From: Bacteroidaceae bacterium
Lineage (GTDB): Bacteria > Bacteroidota > Bacteroidia > Bacteroidales > Bacteroidaceae
NCBI GenBank assembly: GCA_024698925.1
Contig: JAILQO010000027.1
Location: 1-64,000 of the forward strand
Direction: 5' to 3'
DNA: 64,000 nt
The position numbers and the translations under genes were made by a program. Of this stretch, positions 2,720 to 63,816 are shown in pieces (position 1 is the first letter of the stretch; each line of letters opens with the position of its first letter). Under the pieces are notes generated by a model that had not been told where the DNA came from, ran no database searches, and worked only from the letters and a program-made list of their open reading frames with translations.

Positions 2720-3979
2720 TTACAAAGTGATTTCGCGGCCGCGACAGAAGCGGTGGACGATGTGGCGATCATCGCCAAGATAAATGAAGCGCTCAAGGCG
2801 CTGCAGGAGCGGGTAGTCGTCGTGATTGAGGTCGCTGTCGTCAATCACAAGGGCATCAAACTCATAGCCAGGCTCGAAACTGCCTACGCGACCAAAGACG
2901 CTGCCGCCTGACTTGGTAGCCAGCCAGAACGCCTCGGAGAGCGTCAGGAACGAACGGTTGCGATCACGCTGATAGTGCATCTTGCTGGCCTGAATGGCAT
3001 AGACCATCGTGCGGAAGATGCTGAGGGTGTGGCCGCCGCTGATATCGCTGCCGAGGCCCACGCGGATGCCTGCATCGAGGAAGGCGCGGATGGGCGCCAT
3101 CCCAGAGGAGAGGTTGAAGTTGGAGGTGGGGCAGTGGGCCACAAGGATGTCATTCTGGCGCATCAGTTCCATCTCCTCGCCTGCACTCCAGACGCAATGG
3201 GCCATGATGGTGGGTGTCTGTCCGAAAAGGCCGTAGCGGTTGTACGCATCAGCGTAGTTGCGGCTATCGGGCTCCAGACTTCTTACAAGCTCAATCTCGC
3301 CTGTATTCTCGGAGAGGTGGGACTGAACGGGCAGCCCATGAAGCTGTGCCAGCTCGCCACAGAGGTGCAGCAAAGCGGGCGTGCAGGAGGGGATGAAGCG
3401 TGGCGTCATGATGGGGCGCACCAGCGGATCATTGCCATACGCCTGGACCAGCGCTGCGCAGGCCTCCTCGGCCTCTACGAGCGTCTCGCGGAGCGCCTCA
3501 GGACAGTCGCGATCCATATTGACTTTACCCACGAGGGCGCCCATTCCAGCCTCATGGAACAGGTCCATGAGCAGACGGGTAGCCTCGAGGTGAACAGTCG
3601 CAAAAGCGGCGCAACGCATTGTGCCGTTGCGCCACAGGTCATAGACGAAGCGACGATACATCCGCTCGGCATAGGCGAGGTCGGCGTAGCGTGCTTCCTC
3701 TGGGAAGGTGTAATTGGCCAGCCAGGGAAGCAGTTCCAGGTCCATCGCGATGCCGAGGTTGCGATACTGCGGCGCGTGGACATGAACGTCGTTCATGGCT
3801 GGAATGAGCAGGCGGTCGCCAAAGTCGATGACGTCCGATGCTGCACAGCCTAAGGCTTCTGGCGAAGAGGCAATGCCTACAACGCACCCATTCTCGACCG
3901 CGATGCAGCCGTTCTCGACAACGTCGAAATGGTCTTTCTCACGTGTGAAGAGAATATGTGCTTTGTAGGCTTTCCTCAT
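2720..3979 (-). CDS. guaD: Guanine deaminase / amidohydrolase family
   Basis: PAMNDVHVHAPQYRNLG, LPVQSHLSEN, AHCVW, GLGSDISGG metal-dependent hydrolase motifs. Confidence 0.85.
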   Translation of the reverse strand: MRKAYKAHILFTREKDHFDVVENGCIAVENGCVVGIASSPEALGCAASDVIDFGDRLLIPAMNDVHVHAPQYRNLGIAMDLELLPWLANYTFPEEARYADLAYAERMYRRFVYDLWRNGTMRCAAFATVHLEATRLLMDLFHEAGMGALVGKVNMDRDCPEALRETLVEAEEACAALVQAYGNDPLVRPIMTPRFIPSCTPALLHLCGELAQLHGLPVQSHLSENTGEIELVRSLEPDSRNYADAYNRYGLFGQTPTIMAHCVWSAGEEMELMRQNDILVAHCPTSNFNLSSGMAPIRAFLDAGIRVGLGSDISGGHTLSIFRTMVYAIQASKMHYQRDRNRSFLTLSEAFWLATKSGGSVFGRVGSFEPGYEFDALVIDDSDLNHDDYPLLQRLERFIYLGDDRHIVHRFCRGREITL

Positions 3980-52756: not shown

Positions 52757-55597
52757 TTAATACTCCAATCCACCATCGGCGGCCTTTAGCACTTGATCGT
52801 TGATGTTAGTATCATATATCACGCCATTATTGAGTGGCCTCATTTGGGCTATGGTCTGCTTAACAGCTTTACGAACCTTTCTCATTGCCTTAAGGCTTGA
52901 TATTAGATTGTCATAATAATCTTCAATTCCAAAGGCGTTTAATACCACTCTTTCGAATTCTTGCCTGATGGGGTCGTCTATGTCCTGATTAATGTCTAAA
53001 ATACCACGTTCTACTAATTGAGAGAATTGAGTCATAATAGCCGTTTTCTGTTCTTCGGTTAACAGAGCTGGATTGAGCATATAACATTTTGAAATGGAGT
53101 CCTTATTGATGTCAAGCACACCAAGACCTCGGCCGAAGCCAACAGCCTCTATATAGAATAAGGAAAGCATGGAATTGAGCAAAGCATGAAGCAAGTCAAG
53201 ATTATCCGTTGTTCGTATTCTTTTCAAGCCGATGAGCCTTTGGTTAATGAATGTGGGTGAGTTGAACTTAGCGTAGAACATGCGGTCATCGGGATTCATC
53301 ATTGTGAATATCTCTGCTACCTCATCGGTTGTCAGTTCATACCATTTCATTCCTGCACGAGCCAAAACGATAGGGAGTGGTCTTCCTGTTTCATTTACTT
53401 CAAGCTCGAATTTCCTAATCCAAGCTTGCGCTCCTCGATATCCAAGACTTTCAAGTTCATCAGTTTCCATACCACAGCAGAAAGCTTTTCTATCTATTGT
53501 CGGAGATGCAATATAGCTATCTGTATCTCTTGCATTCATTAGCACGTCTTTCAAGAACTGCGGTTCAATAGGCGCATCGCTTTGCGGGAAAAACAATGGA
53601 TCCCAACCTCTACGACTACCTCTGAATACTTTCAGATAGTTGCTAACAGGCACTAACTTGTCTTTAATTTCTAGTAACCATTTGAGATTGCTGAAAAGAG
53701 AGTTATATGAAACGTTCAGTTTTATCAGCGATTCCAATTCTTCTGCATTGTAATTCACTCTTCCTATGACGTCATTGTCCAATTCTCTATCGAGTAACGA
53801 GGAGTTAATAATCGTTTTTTGGTATTCACGGTTATCCGAAATCACATTGAGATTCCGTTTCCATGTGAAGAATGAAATAGAAGTATTTTCTTCTGAGTCT
53901 TCACTTTTTCTTCTCATTATCAATAATGCAGTCACAATATCAGCATTTGTAAACCATCTACCGCTGCCACTAATATGAATGCGCATATCATCAAAATAAT
54001 CCCGAATAGCTGCAAGGAACTTGCTGCCGGCATCTGTCCCGAGAAAAGAGTTGGATAGAATAATTCCAACATAGCCGCCAGCCTTGACCAGATTCTTCAA
54101 ATGGAGGGTTATATAATAGCTGAAGTCAGACCTACCCGAGAGATTGTTTGCCCGTTTTATTGCATTAACAAATGATGTATCATCATCGGGTATTCCACTT
54201 GACTTGACAAATGGAAGGTTAGATACAATGCTATCGAAGAGAGGCAAACAAAAAGTTTCATGTTCTCCAGTTTGCGGATTTACTATTTCCACCTCGTCAC
54301 CAGGACTCATAGTTAGAATGTCTTTCTGGAACAGACGGCATGGCATATTGATGGAATCATAGTTGGTCATTGCCAGATTCGCAATCTGCAAAGGCAATCT
54401 GAATTTATCGCTGGCCCAGGTTGTAGCCATCGCTTGTGCAGCTCCGATACCCCTGTCTTTCTTGAAGTTAATGATAAAACCCGGTATCGTACCTGTTCCA
54501 CAACAACCATCGAAACATTCACCATTTACATCATGGATTGTCATACGTGAAAGAATGGCGGCTAATGTCGGTGGTGTGGGATACTGGCCATTCATCAGTC
54601 GCTTGGAAATATTGACAGACCCTTCAAGCACCTGTTGAAGAATCCTTTGACTTATATTGTTGATAGGAGAATTCTTTAGGAAAAGTGATAGCTCAACCAA
54701 CTGTGCCCAAGTATTATCAGGAATGCACTCATTGTAGAGAATCTTGCTGAAAACGTTATAGAAGTCACTCTTTTCGGTTATCTCCTGAAAGATTCTGTTA
54801 CCATCCATTGGCGTACTATCGTAATCGAGTTGGTCTATGGTAAAAGCACTTTGTTGTCTACGTTTTATAAGGTGGGCAAAAATGATACGGTTGGCCCAGT
54901 TGATTATGATGCTTTTTGAATAAGCAGTATATTTATCAACCTCATCGCCCCTATACTCTGATTCTATATCTTTCCACCAGGTTTCTATGTAGGCAGACAT
55001 TATAGCATCACGATTTGCGGCGTTTCTCAGACATCTTGCAATACTGTACTTGTTTTCGTTGACGAGATTAGAGATAGATGTTTTTGTGAGAACGTCACCA
55101 ATGAACCTCTTCTTCACTTCACCCGAAATAAGATACTCATTGACAGATGTCAGCACGCTTTGCAACGTCTTCTCCCATCTTGACTTGTACATCTGGACAT
55201 CATTTCGTGTCTTGATAGTATTGTTGTCCCAAGTTTTCTTCACTTCATAGTCATGACTATTATCGTCATAAACGTATAGCTTTACATGAGTGAAGTTCCA
55301 AATAATACAACTGTTCAGATTCAAAGCCCTTGCCTTGCGTTTGGCATCGTGAACAAAGTCTATATCAGTAATTGGGACATCAGGCATTTTTAGCTCCCAG
55401 CCTTGCAGAATACTTGACAAGTCATGATCGCCATAGAGTATTACATCTGGAAACATACTTTGTCCGCGATGTTCACTTACCGTTGACTCGCCGCCAGCTC
55501 GTTTAATGATCAAATCGTTATCAGCTGAAAACTGATTAATTTGCGATATTAGTTCTATCGCCCAACTGCGTTCATTTTTTCGGATAGTAGTTGCCAT
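52757..55597 (-). CDS. N-6 DNA methylase fused to N-terminal PD-(D/E)XK nuclease-like domain (Type IIG-like R-M protein)
   Basis: FPDVILYG...GWELKMPD (PD...ExK); FDGCCGTGTIPG motif I; IVSNLPF variant motif IV; start set to MATTIRKNERSW. Confidence 0.8.
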   Translation of the reverse strand: MATTIRKNERSWAIELISQINQFSADNDLIIKRAGGESTVSEHRGQSMFPDVILYGDHDLSSILQGWELKMPDVPITDIDFVHDAKRKARALNLNSCIIWNFTHVKLYVYDDNSHDYEVKKTWDNNTIKTRNDVQMYKSRWEKTLQSVLTSVNEYLISGEVKKRFIGDVLTKTSISNLVNENKYSIARCLRNAANRDAIMSAYIETWWKDIESEYRGDEVDKYTAYSKSIIINWANRIIFAHLIKRRQQSAFTIDQLDYDSTPMDGNRIFQEITEKSDFYNVFSKILYNECIPDNTWAQLVELSLFLKNSPINNISQRILQQVLEGSVNISKRLMNGQYPTPPTLAAILSRMTIHDVNGECFDGCCGTGTIPGFIINFKKDRGIGAAQAMATTWASDKFRLPLQIANLAMTNYDSINMPCRLFQKDILTMSPGDEVEIVNPQTGEHETFCLPLFDSIVSNLPFVKSSGIPDDDTSFVNAIKRANNLSGRSDFSYYITLHLKNLVKAGGYVGIILSNSFLGTDAGSKFLAAIRDYFDDMRIHISGSGRWFTNADIVTALLIMRRKSEDSEENTSISFFTWKRNLNVISDNREYQKTIINSSLLDRELDNDVIGRVNYNAEELESLIKLNVSYNSLFSNLKWLLEIKDKLVPVSNYLKVFRGSRRGWDPLFFPQSDAPIEPQFLKDVLMNARDTDSYIASPTIDRKAFCCGMETDELESLGYRGAQAWIRKFELEVNETGRPLPIVLARAGMKWYELTTDEVAEIFTMMNPDDRMFYAKFNSPTFINQRLIGLKRIRTTDNLDLLHALLNSMLSLFYIEAVGFGRGLGVLDINKDSISKCYMLNPALLTEEQKTAIMTQFSQLVERGILDINQDIDDPIRQEFERVVLNAFGIEDYYDNLISSLKAMRKVRKAVKQTIAQMRPLNNGVIYDTNINDQVLKAADGGLEY

Positions 55598-55610
55598 AGC
55601 CCCAATTTTG

Positions 55611-56459
55611 TTATTCGGCAAATTCCTCAATTAGATTAAGCACTCGTAGATGCTTTTTTTTCTCTTCATCAAGTTGCCGCCATACTTCTTGTAGCCGTTC
55701 GCGAGTTTTTTTGATGTAGTCTATCTTCTCACCTTTGAAAAGCTCGGTATCAGCATTCTTTTCTATTCCAACAAAGTTACGCCCTTCCATCAATGCAGCA
55801 ACAACGAAAGAGCCGCTGCCACTTGTGTTGTCAAGGATGATATCACCTGGATTTGAGTAGGTACGCACGAAATAGCGTCCCAACTCAACAGGTTTTTGGG
55901 TTGCATGAAAAACCTCACCTTCGCTTTCTGCCGTTTTGAAATAAACGACATCAGTCGGATAGCGTTTGCCATCGCTATGCACATGAACAGGCTGGAAATC
56001 TCCATAGCTGCCGCTCAACTGGTTCTTACGAATACCTTTATCGTAAGGTTCACCTTCTGTCATCTGAGGATTGTAAACTGGCTGTTTGTTGTAGAAGACA
56101 CAAACGTCTTCATGTTTTCTCAATGGTTGTTTCTTAGCATTTAAGAAGTTCGTTGGCTTTGATTTCTCCCATACCCACTTATACTTGAAGAGTTTAGGCT
56201 GACTCATAATTAACGCAGCAGTAAACAAACCTTGCGAGGTCAACACAATAGCGCCATTGGGCTTAACGATACGTTCGTATTCAGCCCATAATTTAACGAG
56301 TGGCACTATACTGTCCCACTTATTCTGTGTCGTGCCATAGGGCAAATCACACAGCACCATGTCAATACAGTTATTGGGCAGATGACGCATCACCTTGATG
56401 CAGTCTCCCTCAATGACACGATTAACAAACTTGTCTTCAGTCCAATAATTCTTTGGCAT
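55611..56459 (-). CDS. Site-specific DNA-methyltransferase (beta class)
   Basis: MVLCDLPYGTTQNKWD (motif IV), HATQKPVELGRYFVRTYSNPGDIILDNTSGSGSFVVAAL (motifs X/I). Confidence 0.93.
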   Translation of the reverse strand: MPKNYWTEDKFVNRVIEGDCIKVMRHLPNNCIDMVLCDLPYGTTQNKWDSIVPLVKLWAEYERIVKPNGAIVLTSQGLFTAALIMSQPKLFKYKWVWEKSKPTNFLNAKKQPLRKHEDVCVFYNKQPVYNPQMTEGEPYDKGIRKNQLSGSYGDFQPVHVHSDGKRYPTDVVYFKTAESEGEVFHATQKPVELGRYFVRTYSNPGDIILDNTSGSGSFVVAALMEGRNFVGIEKNADTELFKGEKIDYIKKTRERLQEVWRQLDEEKKKHLRVLNLIEEFAE

Positions 56460-56521
56460 TTGTTTGCTATTTCAAGCGCCTCTACTATCTCTCCTTGAAA
56501 TAGATGGATTCCTATAGGACA

Positions 56522-56680
56522 CAAAAAGAGTGGGAACAATACCTGTCCCACATTAAGGTCCTAGGAAAACCCGAGAAATAGACAAGTAAGCCCACTCATA
56601 TCGAGTGCGCTAGCAACTTGTCTACTACTTCTCGTATCTGTTGTTTAGAATTTCCTAGGTTCTAATGTGGATAGAACAGT
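56522..56680 (-). promoter_or_regulatory. Structured leader with terminator/antiterminator architecture upstream of the R-M operon
   Basis: Outer stem CCACATTA..CCTAGGAAA / TTTCCTAGG..TAATGTGG, inner stem CGAGAA..TAGACAAGT / ACTTGTCTA..TTCTCG, hairpin CACTCgatatGAGTG, then GTGGGA..TCCCAC + TCTTTTT. Confidence 0.65.
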
Positions 56681-56747
56681 AGCAAACGCATATTATATTC
56701 AAAAAATAAGAACGCATGCTCTCTGCGTATGCTGCAGATTGCAGCGG

Positions 56748-56755
56748 CAAAGATA
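56748..56755 (-). promoter_or_regulatory. Bacteroidetes -7 element TATCTTTG for the R-M leader
   Basis: Reverse complement of caaagata; clear -33 TTTG not found. Confidence 0.45.
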
Positions 56756-57095: not shown

Positions 57096-57126
57096 TTTGC
57101 GATTTGGCTATTTTGATGTATCTTTG
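57096..57126 (+). promoter_or_regulatory. Bacteroidetes promoter TTTG-N19-TATCTTTG for the rloA-like gene
   Basis: tttg 57096-57099, N19, tatctttg 57119-57126. Confidence 0.7.
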
Positions 57127-57160
57127 CCGTCGAAAATCTATCTTTATAAATGCGACAACT

Positions 57161-58456
57161 ATGATACAGGAGTTTCAAGTACAGAATTTCTACAGCATCA
57201 GGGAGCAGCAAACAATCAGTTTTGTGCCGACGAATGACGACCGCATGCGTGATCAATATGTTCACGAAGTGGGCGATGGCGTTGAGCTCTTGAAGATTGG
57301 TATTGTGTATGGCAGCAATGCCAGCGGTAAGACCACCTTGCTCAATGCGCTGTCGTACTTCCGCAACGTGATGCTTGTCAAGCCTGAGTCGAAGAACGAA
57401 GGTATGGGCTACTTCCCTTTCCTGCTCGACAATCATAGCAGGAATGAGCATTCGCAGATGCAGATGACCTTCTGGATAAACCGGGAAAAGTACATCATGA
57501 GCTTGGAGTTTGACAGCAAGCGCATATACGAGGAGTCGCTGATTGTATATACCAGCGCTCGTCCAACCACGCTGTATAAGCGTGTATATCAGTCGGAGTC
57601 AGATCACACGGAGGTGGTATTTGGTACAAAATCTGGTATTGACAAGGCTGCCCAGCGTGCCATCGAGGGTAACACCACCAACAACTGTACGGTGATGGCC
57701 GCCTTTGGTCAATCCAACGCTCCTACTTCGAAACTAAATGATGTTTATGGGTTCTTCTTCGCTGGTTTGCAGAGCACCTTGAGCCCAAGGGATTCTCTGT
57801 CGTTCAATATTAAGAACGAACTACATAATGACAAGGATGGCAAGAAGAAACGATTCCTGCTCCAACTACTGAAGGCCAGCGACTTTAACATCGTTGACAT
57901 AATGCTCAACGAGCGCGAAGATTCTATCACGCCCGAATTGGAGATGACCATCAAGAGTGCTCCAATACCCGAGGAAGCCAAGATAGAGATGCTCAGGCGT
58001 GGTACCATCAAGCACGATGATATCATCTTCAGTCATACGGGCGAGGAGGGAGAATATGAGCTGCACGAAGAATTGGAGTCTGCTGGTACACATCGTTTTC
58101 TTGGCATGTCAATTGTGCTGTACTATGTGTTGCACGAGAACAACTTCATACCTGTTGACGAGGTCGAGACCAGTATCCACTATGAGTTGCTCTCGTATTT
58201 CATCAAGTTGTTTCTGGCCAACAGCGAGGGTTCGTCGCAGTTGCTAATGACCACTCACGACATCAATCTGCTGAACGAGGATTTTATCCGTCGCGATGTG
58301 GTGTGGTTTACGGATAAGAGCGAGGTAGGAGCTACCCAGATTAAGCGACTCTCGGCACTCGGCCTGCACAAGACGATGAATCCCTACAACGCCTACAAGC
58401 AGGGCAAGCTGGTGGATCTGCCTTTCCTCGGAAGTATTTACCTTGAAACGGAATAA
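57161..58456 (+). CDS. AAA family ATPase, RloA/AbiLi-like (ABC/OLD-type)
   Basis: YGSNASGKTTLLNAL (Walker A), SAGTHRFLGMSIVLY (signature), FIPVDEVETSIHYEL (Walker B), LLMTTHDINLL; start set to MIQEFQVQNFYS. Confidence 0.9.
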   Translation: MIQEFQVQNFYSIREQQTISFVPTNDDRMRDQYVHEVGDGVELLKIGIVYGSNASGKTTLLNALSYFRNVMLVKPESKNEGMGYFPFLLDNHSRNEHSQMQMTFWINREKYIMSLEFDSKRIYEESLIVYTSARPTTLYKRVYQSESDHTEVVFGTKSGIDKAAQRAIEGNTTNNCTVMAAFGQSNAPTSKLNDVYGFFFAGLQSTLSPRDSLSFNIKNELHNDKDGKKKRFLLQLLKASDFNIVDIMLNEREDSITPELEMTIKSAPIPEEAKIEMLRRGTIKHDDIIFSHTGEEGEYELHEELESAGTHRFLGMSIVLYYVLHENNFIPVDEVETSIHYELLSYFIKLFLANSEGSSQLLMTTHDINLLNEDFIRRDVVWFTDKSEVGATQIKRLSALGLHKTMNPYNAYKQGKLVDLPFLGSIYLETE

Positions 58457-58462
58457 CGACAC

Positions 58463-59293
58463 ATGGCAGTAAAGAAGAGTATAGCAATCATTGGCGAGGG
58501 AGAAACCGAGTGGTGGTACTTTGATACCCTTCGCGTAGCTTGCCGCTATAAGTTCAAGGTGGCACCCGACTTCCCCCAGCATTCAGATATTTCGCACATG
58601 GCGAAACTGGCTGAGGACTATGTGAAGCGCGAGACCGACTATGTGGTTTGTCTGGTGGATATGGACCGTCTGCTCAGGGTGCCCGCAGAAATGGCGACCT
58701 ATCAGAAGCTGAAGAAGAAAAGTAGCCGGAACGTGATTTGGATTGAGACCAACCCATGTACCGAGTTCTGGTTCCTGCTCCACTTCCTGCCGCAGATTTC
58801 CGTGAAGCATTATGATAGTTGCGAGGATGTCTTACCCGACCTGCAGCGCTATATGCCAGGCTACGAGAAGACGGCACGCTACTTCAGGCAGAACAATCTG
58901 TACAAGTATCTGACGGAGCACGGCGACCTCGAACGCGCCATCGGATATGCGAAGGAACTCAGCCGCCTGAGCGAGGCAACTCCCGAGGACAAGATTGCAT
59001 ATAGTCAGATGCACAAGGTGTTTGAACTGATAGCATCGATGGAGGCAGAGGAGTCTGAAGAGGGTGATAAAAATGAATCAAAAGCGGAAAATCAAAATCG
59101 AAATGATGAATATCGGCGACAAATCGCCAATTTTATCGCCGATGAGGGGATTTCAGATTCAAAATCCATTTCAAAAGCCATCGGACTCAAAGCCTCACGA
59201 ACCCGCGACTATCTGAAACAACTCGTGGACGAAGGTATCCTTGAGATAGAGGGTGAATATAAAAACAGGAAGTATAAGATTAAAAATGTATAA
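58463..59293 (+). CDS. RloB-like TOPRIM protein with C-terminal winged-helix-like extension
   Basis: AIIGEGETEWWYFDTL, VVCLVDMDRL, WIETNPCTEFWFLLHF; C-term IANFIADEGISDSKSISKAIGLKASRTRDYLKQLVDEGILEIEG. Confidence 0.85.
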   Translation: MAVKKSIAIIGEGETEWWYFDTLRVACRYKFKVAPDFPQHSDISHMAKLAEDYVKRETDYVVCLVDMDRLLRVPAEMATYQKLKKKSSRNVIWIETNPCTEFWFLLHFLPQISVKHYDSCEDVLPDLQRYMPGYEKTARYFRQNNLYKYLTEHGDLERAIGYAKELSRLSEATPEDKIAYSQMHKVFELIASMEAEESEEGDKNESKAENQNRNDEYRRQIANFIADEGISDSKSISKAIGLKASRTRDYLKQLVDEGILEIEGEYKNRKYKIKNV

Positions 59294-60033: not shown

Positions 60034-63000
60034 ATGAAATTATTCACAATTATATTTGCTTTATTTGTAAGCACAGGTGCCTTCGCCTATGATTGCGAAG
60101 TTGATGGCATCTATTACAATAGATTGTCAACAGATGAACTTGGAGTTACTTATGGAACTAATAAATACACAGGTGACATCGTAATTCCTGAAACTGTTAC
60201 ATTTCGGAATAAGTTGTTCAAAGTAACTCAGATTACATCGAATGCGTTTAAGTCTTGTAACATTACATCGGTTTCTATTCCGCAAAGCGTAACTTTAATT
60301 GACTATTCTGCATTCTTTGGTTGTTCATCTCTTACCTCTGTTATAATTCCTCAAGGAGTAAAAGAACTTGGCTCATATGCCTTTTCAGAATGTACAAAGG
60401 CTACTTCAATTTCTTTACCGGAAAGTCTTACTTCTATAGGCTCTTCTGCGTTTGAAAATTGTAGCAATATAACATCTATTTCTATTCCTGAAGGAGTAAC
60501 TTTATTGCAAGAAGCAACATTTAAGGGATGTAGTAATCTTAATTCTGTATCGCTTCCGAAAAGTCTTACAGAGATTAAAAATAATGTCTTTCAGAATTGT
60601 AGCACGCTTCCTTCAATAACACTGCCGCAAGAATTGAAAAGTATCTCTAAATACGCATTTGCAGGGTGTAATAGTTTGGTTTCTGTAAATATTCAAGGAA
60701 CAATAGAGAAAATATATGAAAATGCGTTTCAAGATTGTACTAGCTTGACTTCCATTTCTCTACCAGAGGGACTAAATGAAATAGGAATTATGGCTTTCGC
60801 AAATTGCTCAAGTTTGAAAAGATTTTCAATGCCTACGAGTGTTACATCTATTCTCAACAACGCTTTTTCTAATTGTACAGGATTAGAAAAAGTTATAGCT
60901 AAAGACATTGCTTCATGGTGTGAAATTAGTTTTGGTTCATTTACTAGCAATCCTTTATATTTTGCCAAACACTTGTATAGTGATGAAGATACAGAGATAA
61001 CAGAATTGATAATTACTAATAAAGTTTCTCATATAAGTGATTATGCTTTTTACAATGCAGATAATCTTTCTAAAATTTATGTACTGCCTAATTACTATAA
61101 CACTAATCCTATAAAGATATCAAGCAATACGTTTAGTAATTCATGCTATACTTGGACTGATTTATTTGTTCCAGAAGGGAAAATAGATATTTATAAGAGA
61201 ACTAACTATTGGAATAAATTCAAATATATTTCTGAATATAGTACTACTATTGATGGAATTAAATACCGAATATTGCCTTCTTCCCAAGATGTAGCAGTAA
61301 CCCAAAAGGGGGATGATGATGTTTACTCAGGAGACATTATTATACCAGAAACCATTCCTTTATTCGGTAAAACATTTAATGTTATATCTATTGATGGGCA
61401 GGCATTTAAAGATTGCAACGGCCTGACTTCCATTACGATTCCCAACAGTGTGACGAGTATAGGACAATCTGCTTTTTCTGGCTGTTCAAATCTTTTATCA
61501 GTGACTCTCCCTAGCAGTATAACTAGCATAGAAATGTCTGCGTTCGAAAGTTGCTTTAAACTTACTTCCATCATAATTCCTAGCAGTGTGACGAGCATAA
61601 AAAGTGATGCTTTCGAAAATTGCAAAGGCTTGACTTCTATCACGATTCCAAACAGTGTGACGAACATCGGAATTGATGCTTTTTCTGGCTGCAGCAGTCT
61701 GAAATCCGTCACAATTGGTAACAGCGTAACAAGCATAGGAGACGAAGCTTTCGCGTATTGCAGCGGCTTGTCCTCCATCAAGATTCCAAACAGTGTGACG
61801 AGCATAGGAGACCGCGCTTTCTCTGGTTGCAGTGGTCTAACTTCCATCACAATCCCCAATAGTGTGAAGAGCATAGGATATTCTGCCTTTTCTGGCTGCA
61901 GTGGTTTGATCTCCATAGTTGTGGAATCTGACAATGTTTACTATGACTCACGTGATAATTGTAACGCGATTATTGAAACAGCTAGCAATACATTGATTTC
62001 GGGTTGTAAGAACACTATTATTCCAAATAGTGTGACGAGCATTGGAAACTATGCTTTCTCTTACTACCCCGGCCTGAGCTCCATCACTATCCCAAATAGT
62101 GTGACGAGCATAGGAGACCGCGCTTTCTCTGGTTGCAGTGGTCTAACTTCCATCACAATCCCCAATAGTGTGAAGAGCATAGGATATTCTGCCTTTTCTA
62201 GCTGCAGTGGTTTGACCTCCATTACCATTCCAAACAGTGTGACGAGCATAGGAAGCGGGTGTTTCACCAACTGCAGTGGTCTGACATCTATAGTTGTAGA
62301 ATCTGACAATGTTTACTATGACTCACGTGATAATTGTAACGCGATTATTGAAACAGCAAGCAATACGTTGGTTTCAGGTTGCAAGAATACAATTATTCCA
62401 AATAGTGTGACGAGCATTGGAAACTATGCTTTCTATTATTGCAAAGGCTTGACTTCCATCACTATTCCCAACAGTGTGACAAGCATTGGAACCGATGCTT
62501 TCGAAGACTGCAGTAGTCTGAAATCCGTCACAATTGGTAACAGCGTAACAAGCATAGGATACGAAGCTTTCGCGTATTGCAGCGGCTTGTCCTCCATCAC
62601 GATTCCAAACAGTGTGACGAACATTGGAGACCGTGCTTTCTATTACTGCTATAGTCTATCCATTGTGACGTCACTAAATCCTGTTCCTCCGACTATTGGA
62701 AATGTATTTTCCTTTTATACTGCAACATTGCAGGTTCCAACAGGAAGCAAGACTGCCTACCAAAATGCCGAAAATTGGAAGAACTTTACTAACATTATAG
62801 AGATTGAACAAACTCCAGAAATTGATAATATCATCTTTGCCGATGCAACTGTTAAAGCAATTTGTGTCGCCAATTGGGATACAAATGGCGATGGCGAATT
62901 GAGCAAAGCAGAAGCAACGGCTGTGACAGACCTTGGGGAGGTCTTTTCAAGCAAAGACATTCAATCATTTGATGAACTAAAATACTTTACAGGTTTGTCA

Positions 63001-63816
63001 AGCATAGGAATTGATGCTTTTAGGAATTGCAGAAGTTTAGAAACTATCTCGATTTCCAATAGTGTAACTAGCATCGGAAATTACGCTTTCTGTGGATGTA
63101 GCAGTCTGCCCTCTATCACAATTCCAAACAGTGTATCAAGCATAGGATTCGATACTTTCAGAGGGTGTAGCACCCTGACTAGCATTGTTGTAGAAGCGAG
63201 CAATGCAACATTTGACTCACGTGATAACTGCAATGCTATTATTGAAACGGCAACAAATACATTGATTTATGGTTGTAAGAGCACTATTATCCCTAGTAGT
63301 GTTTCGAGTATAGGACGAGGTGCTTTCTTAGATTGTCGAGGTCTGACCTCAATAAATATACCAAATAACGTAACAAGTATAGGTTTTGTAGCTTTCAGTA
63401 ATTGCGGTGATTTGACTTCCATTACGTTTGGTAAGAGTATGACTAAGATAGATAGTTTTGCTTTTGCTGAATGTAACGGCCTGACTACAGTAACTTCATT
63501 AAATCCGGTTCCTCCGACTATTGATAATTCTGTATTTCCTGCTTATTCTGCAACGTTACAGGTTCCTACAGGCAGCAAGACTGCATATCAAAACGCTGAA
63601 TACTGGAAGAACTTCACAAACATTGTGGAGATAGGAAAAGCAACTCTTGGCGATGCCAACGGCGACGGCGTAGTCGATGCAGCCGACGTGGTGGCTATTG
63701 TGAACTACATTCTGAACAAGCCGGGAGAGAACTTCAATGAGACGGCGGCTGATATGAATGGTGACGGTGTGATAAACGTAGCTGACGTGCTTGCTGTGGT
63801 GAACACCATCCGTTAG
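60034..63816 (+). CDS. BspA-like leucine-rich-repeat surface protein with dockerin/EF-hand-like C-terminus
   Basis: Signal peptide; about 30 LTSITIPNSVTSIGxxAFxxCSG units; DANGDGVVDAADVVAIVNYIL...DMNGDGVINVADVLAVVNTI. Confidence 0.95.
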   Translation: MKLFTIIFALFVSTGAFAYDCEVDGIYYNRLSTDELGVTYGTNKYTGDIVIPETVTFRNKLFKVTQITSNAFKSCNITSVSIPQSVTLIDYSAFFGCSSLTSVIIPQGVKELGSYAFSECTKATSISLPESLTSIGSSAFENCSNITSISIPEGVTLLQEATFKGCSNLNSVSLPKSLTEIKNNVFQNCSTLPSITLPQELKSISKYAFAGCNSLVSVNIQGTIEKIYENAFQDCTSLTSISLPEGLNEIGIMAFANCSSLKRFSMPTSVTSILNNAFSNCTGLEKVIAKDIASWCEISFGSFTSNPLYFAKHLYSDEDTEITELIITNKVSHISDYAFYNADNLSKIYVLPNYYNTNPIKISSNTFSNSCYTWTDLFVPEGKIDIYKRTNYWNKFKYISEYSTTIDGIKYRILPSSQDVAVTQKGDDDVYSGDIIIPETIPLFGKTFNVISIDGQAFKDCNGLTSITIPNSVTSIGQSAFSGCSNLLSVTLPSSITSIEMSAFESCFKLTSIIIPSSVTSIKSDAFENCKGLTSITIPNSVTNIGIDAFSGCSSLKSVTIGNSVTSIGDEAFAYCSGLSSIKIPNSVTSIGDRAFSGCSGLTSITIPNSVKSIGYSAFSGCSGLISIVVESDNVYYDSRDNCNAIIETASNTLISGCKNTIIPNSVTSIGNYAFSYYPGLSSITIPNSVTSIGDRAFSGCSGLTSITIPNSVKSIGYSAFSSCSGLTSITIPNSVTSIGSGCFTNCSGLTSIVVESDNVYYDSRDNCNAIIETASNTLVSGCKNTIIPNSVTSIGNYAFYYCKGLTSITIPNSVTSIGTDAFEDCSSLKSVTIGNSVTSIGYEAFAYCSGLSSITIPNSVTNIGDRAFYYCYSLSIVTSLNPVPPTIGNVFSFYTATLQVPTGSKTAYQNAENWKNFTNIIEIEQTPEIDNIIFADATVKAICVANWDTNGDGELSKAEATAVTDLGEVFSSKDIQSFDELKYFTGLSSIGIDAFRNCRSLETISISNSVTSIGNYAFCGCSSLPSITIPNSVSSIGFDTFRGCSTLTSIVVEASNATFDSRDNCNAIIETATNTLIYGCKSTIIPSSVSSIGRGAFLDCRGLTSINIPNNVTSIGFVAFSNCGDLTSITFGKSMTKIDSFAFAECNGLTTVTSLNPVPPTIDNSVFPAYSATLQVPTGSKTAYQNAEYWKNFTNIVEIGKATLGDANGDGVVDAADVVAIVNYILNKPGENFNETAADMNGDGVINVADVLAVVNTIR

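Follow-up and report, generated by a model that had tools for sequence, protein, structure and literature searches.

A leader RNA widespread in Bacteroidia, probably laid out as an attenuator, precedes a restriction-modification operon

The leader in front of the restriction-modification (R-M) operon in the window, a 64,000-nucleotide stretch of a Bacteroidaceae contig, is probably one copy of a widely shared cis RNA of the Bacteroidia with the layout of a trp-type attenuator, in which pairing of its third and fourth segments would form the terminator. The best reading is that the leader belongs to a new, widely shared attenuator family and is not a riboswitch specific to R-M. Four segments can form three overlapping helices, 1:2, 2:3 (a long hairpin) and 3:4, the last of these followed by a U-rich tract. 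The pairings are supported by comparison of many family members, from which we infer the switch function.

The leader extends on the minus strand between a TATCTTTG box (56755-56748) and the start codon (ATG, 56459) of the methyltransferase (MTase) gene. The box likely places the 5' end just upstream of the folded leader, with transcription predicted to start just downstream of the box. The operon consists of a small N6/N4 MTase gene followed by a gene for a 957-aa Type IIG restriction enzyme-methyltransferase, as identified with Pfam and padloc. The features, with segments 1 to 4 also named S5, D5, D3 and X, are:

56748-56755, minus strand: promoter -7 box TATCTTTG, assigned by sequence (Bacteroidetes TAnnTTTG) and aligned in nine relatives
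56670-56691, minus strand: segment 1 (S5, ATGCGTTTGCTACTGTTCTATC), partner of segment 2; window duplex -17.6 kcal/mol
56660-56670, minus strand: Pa 5' arm CCACATTAGAA; helix 1, 96.3% paired, 7/8 pairs changed on both sides
56651-56659, minus strand: Pb 5' arm CCTAGGAAA; all 9 pairs changed on both sides
56603-56633, minus strand: segment 2 (D5), 5' strand of the upper hairpin, partner of segment 1 or 3
56573-56597, minus strand: segment 3 (D3), 3' strand of the upper hairpin, partner of segment 2 (putative antiterminator form) or 4 (putative terminator form)
56560-56568, minus strand: Pb 3' arm TTTCCTAGG, from Pb column pairing
56548-56559, minus strand: Pa 3' arm ACCTTAATGTGG, from column covariation
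56528-56549, minus strand: segment 4 (X, GGGACAGGTATTGTTCCCACTC), a near-copy of segment 2 and partner of segment 3; window duplex -24.1 kcal/mol
56530-56551, minus strand: local stem GTGGGA (56551-56546)/TCCCAC (56535-56530), overlapping segment 4; GTGGG/CCCAC invariant in ten close sequences
56523-56527, minus strand: U-run TTTTT, directly after segment 4
56467-56503, minus strand: hairpin CTATTTCAAG..CTTGAAATAG abutting the MTase start; compensatory change visible among relatives by sequence comparison
55611-56459, minus strand: N6_N4 DNA methyltransferase, 282 aa (Pfam PF01555, 3.3e-23; padloc MTase_II, 5.6e-66)
52757-55630, minus strand: Type IIG restriction enzyme-methyltransferase, 957 aa (padloc PDLC03606, 7.5e-252), overlapping the end of the MTase gene

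Divergent from the operon, at 57104-59293 on the plus strand, lies an AbiL-like pair (an AAA ATPase, padloc AbiLi 5.8e-67, and an RloB-like protein), which together with the R-M operon makes up a small defence island.

The 121-nt hairpin of the window leader folds at -48.2 kcal/mol, compared with -24.6 +/- 3.1 in dinucleotide shuffles (z -7.6, 0/200). Across the family, the columns of 2:3, Pa and Pb are paired in 94.9% of cells, and 21 of 25 pairs have changed on both sides; Pb, for example, occurs as CCTAGG/CCTAGG, CCTGAG/CTCAGG and CGTAGG/CCTACG. At the Pb 3' arm, the flanking GGNN..NNCC could form a local hairpin within the 3:4 loop (helix 3, partial, 77% paired). The 3:4 helix was tested on a 95-row alignment that had been fitted to 2:3, not to 3:4. 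Together with this inner hairpin it is paired in 85.1% of cells, with 15 of 21 pairs changed on both sides and 129 double-changed cells against 55 in shuffles (0/500), and sliding the partner gave 40-52%. We also compared native with swapped segment partners among 80 dissimilar members, where native partners were favoured for 2:3 (-29.98 vs -18.61), 3:4 (-23.82 vs -17.86), 1:2 (-15.95 vs -11.88) and Pa (-8.45 vs -2.39); the segments and columns were picked after inspection of the data and, as the members are related, neither the swap nor the shuffle counts are strict probabilities. No difference between native and swapped partners appeared in these 80 members for 1:4, 2:4, 1:3 or Pa3:X, which fits a 1-2-3-4 relay. 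The stems are conserved in nine close relatives and in the wider family, and chance is thus ruled out.

The 1:2 helix is less secure than the other helices, since it served as a control in the swap test and its signal was noticed only in the outcome. A re-run gave -15.71 vs -11.82 in 75 members that largely overlap the first set, and by columns 1:2 reaches at least 70% in a 5-pair core only. Segment 1 is also able to form a small GC..GC hairpin.

We propose that the two forms of the leader would set operon expression in opposite directions. When 1:2 forms, segment 3 would be left free to pair with segment 4, and 3:4 with its U-rich tract would make an intrinsic terminator-like hairpin that turns the operon off. 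When segment 1 is held off segment 2, the long Pa-Pb-2:3 hairpin would form, 3:4 would be prevented, and polymerase would read through. Termination would be the work of 3:4, and the occupancy of segment 1 would decide between the folds. By duplex energy, 1:2 plus 3:4 outweighs 2:3 alone in 74 of 75 members, with Pa and Pb left off the 2:3 side. Against the model, the hairpin form is the more stable one in the window, where the 2:3 form is the MFE structure at -72.6 kcal/mol compared with -62.1 when 3:4 is forced and -70.0 when the local stem is forced. Directly after segment 4 there is a T-rich stretch with subfamily means of 4.5-6.5 T per 8 nt (background 2.1). It is strong in class-level and window-like members and moderate in the AAGCGUUAUGC subfamily (at least 5 T in 8 nt in 39/84), so this subfamily may terminate weakly or not at all.

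Alternatively, the bistable leader might control not termination but the initiation of translation or the stability of the mRNA, with segment 4 pairing either with segment 3 or with the loop of a start-proximal hairpin and in this way exposing or hiding the start region. Indeed, most members have an extra hairpin just before the ATG, with a loop, GGnACTG, complementary to CAGTTCC in segment 4, the window hairpin at 56503-56467 abuts the ATG, and one large subfamily has a weak U tract. Pairing of a segment-4 fragment with the downstream region scored -8.83 native vs -6.91 swapped, which is suggestive only, since one of the intended controls, segment 1 against the downstream region, shifted as well (-10.70 vs -9.43). 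These statistics are weaker than those for 3:4, and a purely translational model leaves the U-enrichment directly after segment 4 unexplained. We consider it unlikely, and attenuation by 3:4 remains the preferred reading, possibly with a translational output alongside. Start-proximal hairpins of the type GnCCTTTnGGgACTGGAGGnC, 10-25 nt before the ATG and with a loop complementary to CAGTTCC of segment 4, are seen for example at loci L191, L189 and L176.

In the attenuation model, an occupant of segment 1 would set the choice between the folds. In 78 members this segment reads ATG-YTN-NTN-TTG, mostly encoding Met-Leu-Ile/Val-Leu, and the rest of the family has no ATG there. In 72 of these 78 leaders a stop ends the frame after exactly 4 or 8 codons, the 8-codon stop lying within the Pb arm, and the other frames are mostly open. 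A stop right after the TTG occurs in 24/30 leaders with the Pb stop out of frame vs 14/48 with it in frame, in counts uncorrected for the relatedness of the members. This stop pattern is as expected of a short translated leader. Tentatively, a ribosome on the mini-ORF might be the occupant of segment 1 in the ATG-bearing subfamily, and could act there as the sensor. In the window copy the sole mini-ORF candidate is TTG-initiated (TTG CTA CTG TTC TAT CCA CAT TAG).

Attenuators that use upstream ORFs offer a comparison. The topAI leader of E. coli is a uORF attenuator that senses ribosome-targeting antibiotics (PMC12121999). Similarly to topAI and erm, a short translated leader in our family could signal translation stress and turn on the operons that follow, among them defence or toxin-antitoxin operons. 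In contrast, topAI and erm are single-gene systems, whereas our leader family is common to a class and its mini-ORF (ML[I/V]L) is not universal. A class-wide sensor of translation stress, in which ribosomes that stall on or miss the mini-ORF would cause the terminator to fail and defence, secreted and mobile cargo genes to come on together, is a speculation that we consider doubtful.

The family itself came to light in covariance searches. A first model (R1) gave matches in 42 of 139 genomes of the genus, and inspection showed the matches to be a clear family that shares the Pb motif and has arms that covary. A second model (R2), built from 34 members, found the leader in at least 129 of the 139 genus genomes, among them all 18 of the best quality, usually in several copies and with up to 18 reported copies per genome. 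Within the order it was present in at least 153 of the 393 genomes sampled (93/207 genera), and it was also found in at least 58 genomes labelled 'same class' only, among 295 sampled; the larger searches scored only a few candidates in each genome, and the counts are therefore lower bounds. The leader is thinner in the rest of the class than in the order. All positives in a phylum draw of 198 genomes came from the same class, in a draw for which the number of other-class genomes is not shown. The leaders form an uncatalogued family across the class Bacteroidia with gut, oral and environmental members. Among the carriers identified by name are Bacteroides uniformis, B. finegoldii, Parabacteroides distasonis, Phocaeicola massiliensis and Prevotella sp. 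oral taxon 299. Within the genome of the window, no repeat or mobile copy of the hairpin was found by DNA similarity; the copies are structural only.

In the records checked, the leaders are unannotated intergenic sequence. No leader among the window, 18 genus, 20 order and 16 class-level loci matched Rfam 15 at the gathering threshold, and Bacteroid-trp, Bacteroidales-1, Bacteroides-1 and Flavo-1 did not reach that threshold in the scanned leaders. The 16 class-level loci gave one tRNA and nothing else at this threshold. With lax E-values there was again no leader match, one such search returning AT-rich miRNA noise alone. The element is undescribed in the open-access literature that we searched. 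Flavo-1 RNA (RF01705) is a widespread Bacteroidetes motif found in sense or antisense orientation (PMC2864571, PMC9723704). Like Flavo-1, the leader family is widespread in Bacteroidetes; unlike it, the family is always in sense orientation, and the 16 class-level loci gave no Flavo-1 match.

The element is a cis leader. A same-strand ORF starts downstream in 150 of 152 members, at a median distance of 45 nt, and a TAnnTTTG box lies 20-140 nt upstream of the element in 127 of 146 (87%); further away there are 1-3 such boxes per 50 nt per ~140 loci. Most of the downstream genes are accessory ones, with R-M and other defence genes, secreted proteins and mobile-element cargo. The first genes at 75 loci, classified with Pfam and PADLOC, include those for BspA-type LRR proteins, EcoRI-type, D12, N6 and type I MTases, and SNF2/PLD-type defence helicases. 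By a simple heuristic, signal-peptide-like starts were found in 84/150 served genes vs 42/213 control ORFs from the same loci. On the B. uniformis plasmid pBUN1 a MobV relaxase gene is followed by the leader (L322:3515-3730) and then immediately by blaMUN-1; a different plasmid carries the leader before a DUF4433 gene, and a plasmid copy precedes an operon with a NERD nuclease. Small proteins served by leaders at L177, L199, L229, L211 and L221 are, as judged by eye, presumably HxsD-like (His-Xaa-Ser peptide-modification systems). A secreted BspA-type leucine-rich repeat protein of 1260 aa is also encoded in the window (60034-63816, plus strand). Other BspA-type genes of the genus carry the leader, but the covariance model reported none at this one.

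That the leader precedes unrelated and often mobile genes across the class would also suit a constitutive expression module, either a stability element or a processive antiterminator, which would serve cargo genes in any Bacteroidia host and whose alternative helices would be folding intermediates. Processive antiterminator leaders such as put, EAR and LoaP/dfn are likewise structured 5' RNAs upstream of operons that are reused at several loci. However, they bind polymerase or NusG paralogues without mutually exclusive terminator helices, and a constitutive module has no need for three mutually exclusive, separately maintained helices or for a U tract after one of them. We regard such a module as improbable.

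The sequence-only reading had described the layout as that of a riboswitch or attenuator, and nothing points to a metabolite riboswitch. Conserved unpaired positions do flank Pb, and the broad regulon resembles those of second-messenger riboswitches, which could suggest a metabolite or second-messenger aptamer in the conserved internal loop GAACC/GGACC. However, we see no multi-branched conserved aptamer core, the conservation of GGNN..NNCC is partly accounted for by the alternative hairpin, no Rfam family matches, and the genes have no metabolic theme, which makes a riboswitch very improbable.

We also examined the relatives of the MTase locus itself. The MTase scan gave ten close relatives with upstream sequence, from Prevotella-group genomes. 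The whole leader is present in nine of them (L035-L037, L039-L044), whereas L038, the tenth, keeps only its last segment; the contig of an eleventh, L084, ends before the leader. Leader conservation among the relatives exceeds what is expected for a UTR, with compensatory changes in Pb from CCTAGG/CCTAGG to CCTGAG/CTCAGG. As a false-positive check, R1 (E<=1) was run on 67 related MTase loci (L045-L110, L006) of other phyla and of viral contigs, and the leader was absent from all of them. At the L038 locus (300-745) foreign upstream sequence joins the truncated leader at segment 4, which makes this a natural leader deletion.

These results retain much of the sequence-only reading and move its competing fold. 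Its quoted sequences can be found at 56743-56513 of the minus strand. The GTGGGA/TCCCAC stem and U-run exist, GTGG is common to the stem and the long hairpin as claimed, and the U-run ends about 64 nt before 56459, close to the ~65 nt given for the terminator. Its expectation of conserved and covarying stems in homologous loci is borne out by the nine relatives and the family columns, and its suggested Rfam comparison linked the window leader to no known family. The claim of mutually exclusive folds, one of them terminator-like, in a 5' leader before an R-M operon holds, but not with the local stem as competitor. In the family, the local segment-4 hairpin that includes GTGGGA/TCCCAC scored -4.60 native vs -3.99 swapped. 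The better supported competitor, by column covariation, pairs the apical 3' strand GAGTGGGCTTACTTGTC (56597-56581) with the near-copy GACAGGTATTGTTCCCACTC (56547-56528); the long-range helix and the local stem share their 3' arm and U-run. A simple local attenuator specific to the R-M operon, long hairpin against GTGGGA/TCCCAC terminator, is barely credible: its stem is invariant in ten close relatives, has a U-run and folds at -70.0 kcal/mol in the window when forced, but without variation there is no covariation, family-wide support is small, and the same leader precedes unrelated accessory genes.

R-M operons are usually controlled by C proteins or by MTase autoregulation. The present operon shares with these the control of MTase and restriction enzyme expression, but would do so through an RNA leader, and there is no C protein gene among its own ORFs. 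The closest likeness in layout is to trp-type leader attenuators (Bacteroid-trp, RF01692; the E. coli trp leader), which have the same 1-2-3-4 order with 1:2, an antiterminator 2:3, and a terminator 3:4 with a U run, as well as a short ORF in segment 1, for which one subfamily here has a candidate. Unlike them, our leader family is not tied to a single biosynthetic pathway and occurs in hundreds of copies before unrelated accessory genes. It also differs in having longer helices, the Pa/Pb clamps and no Rfam match, and its sensing is putative. To our knowledge, each classical attenuator serves a single operon or pathway. In this family the same leader recurs, across a class that dominates the human gut, before R-M and other defence genes, secreted proteins, a beta-lactamase of a mobilizable plasmid and a DUF4433 gene of a second plasmid, and many accessory genes that bear it may share one control signal. 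We predict a common signal that opens accessory genes, which would make the expression of newly acquired genes in Bacteroidia a directly testable question. The covariance model also allows annotation of leaders that now appear as unannotated intergenic sequence.

Several other readings were rejected. Retron, transposon-end and attC interpretations were dropped on inspection of the relatives because the flanking GTTTGCTA/TAGCAAAC pair is found only in the window subfamily and every copy comes with a promoter box and a gene of its own. A phage-borne origin of the R-M leader was set aside after two window-type patterns found no match in viral contigs; the AAGCGTTATGCTYRTCTTG string occurs in 18 viral contigs, and at least 2 of these are coding-sequence matches, not leaders. 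A closing helix between 5' segment 1 and segment 4 seemed promising from the conserved columns, but the swap test did not support it, and by the same test Pa'' (the Pa 3' arm with downstream sequence), present in some defence leaders, is not family-wide.

At locus L190 two copies of the element (1501-1682 and 2950-3126) lie on the same strand, 1.4 kb apart. An ACATAT motif is found no more than 40 nt upstream of segment 1 in 44/169 members, vs 5/169 in the next 40 nt.
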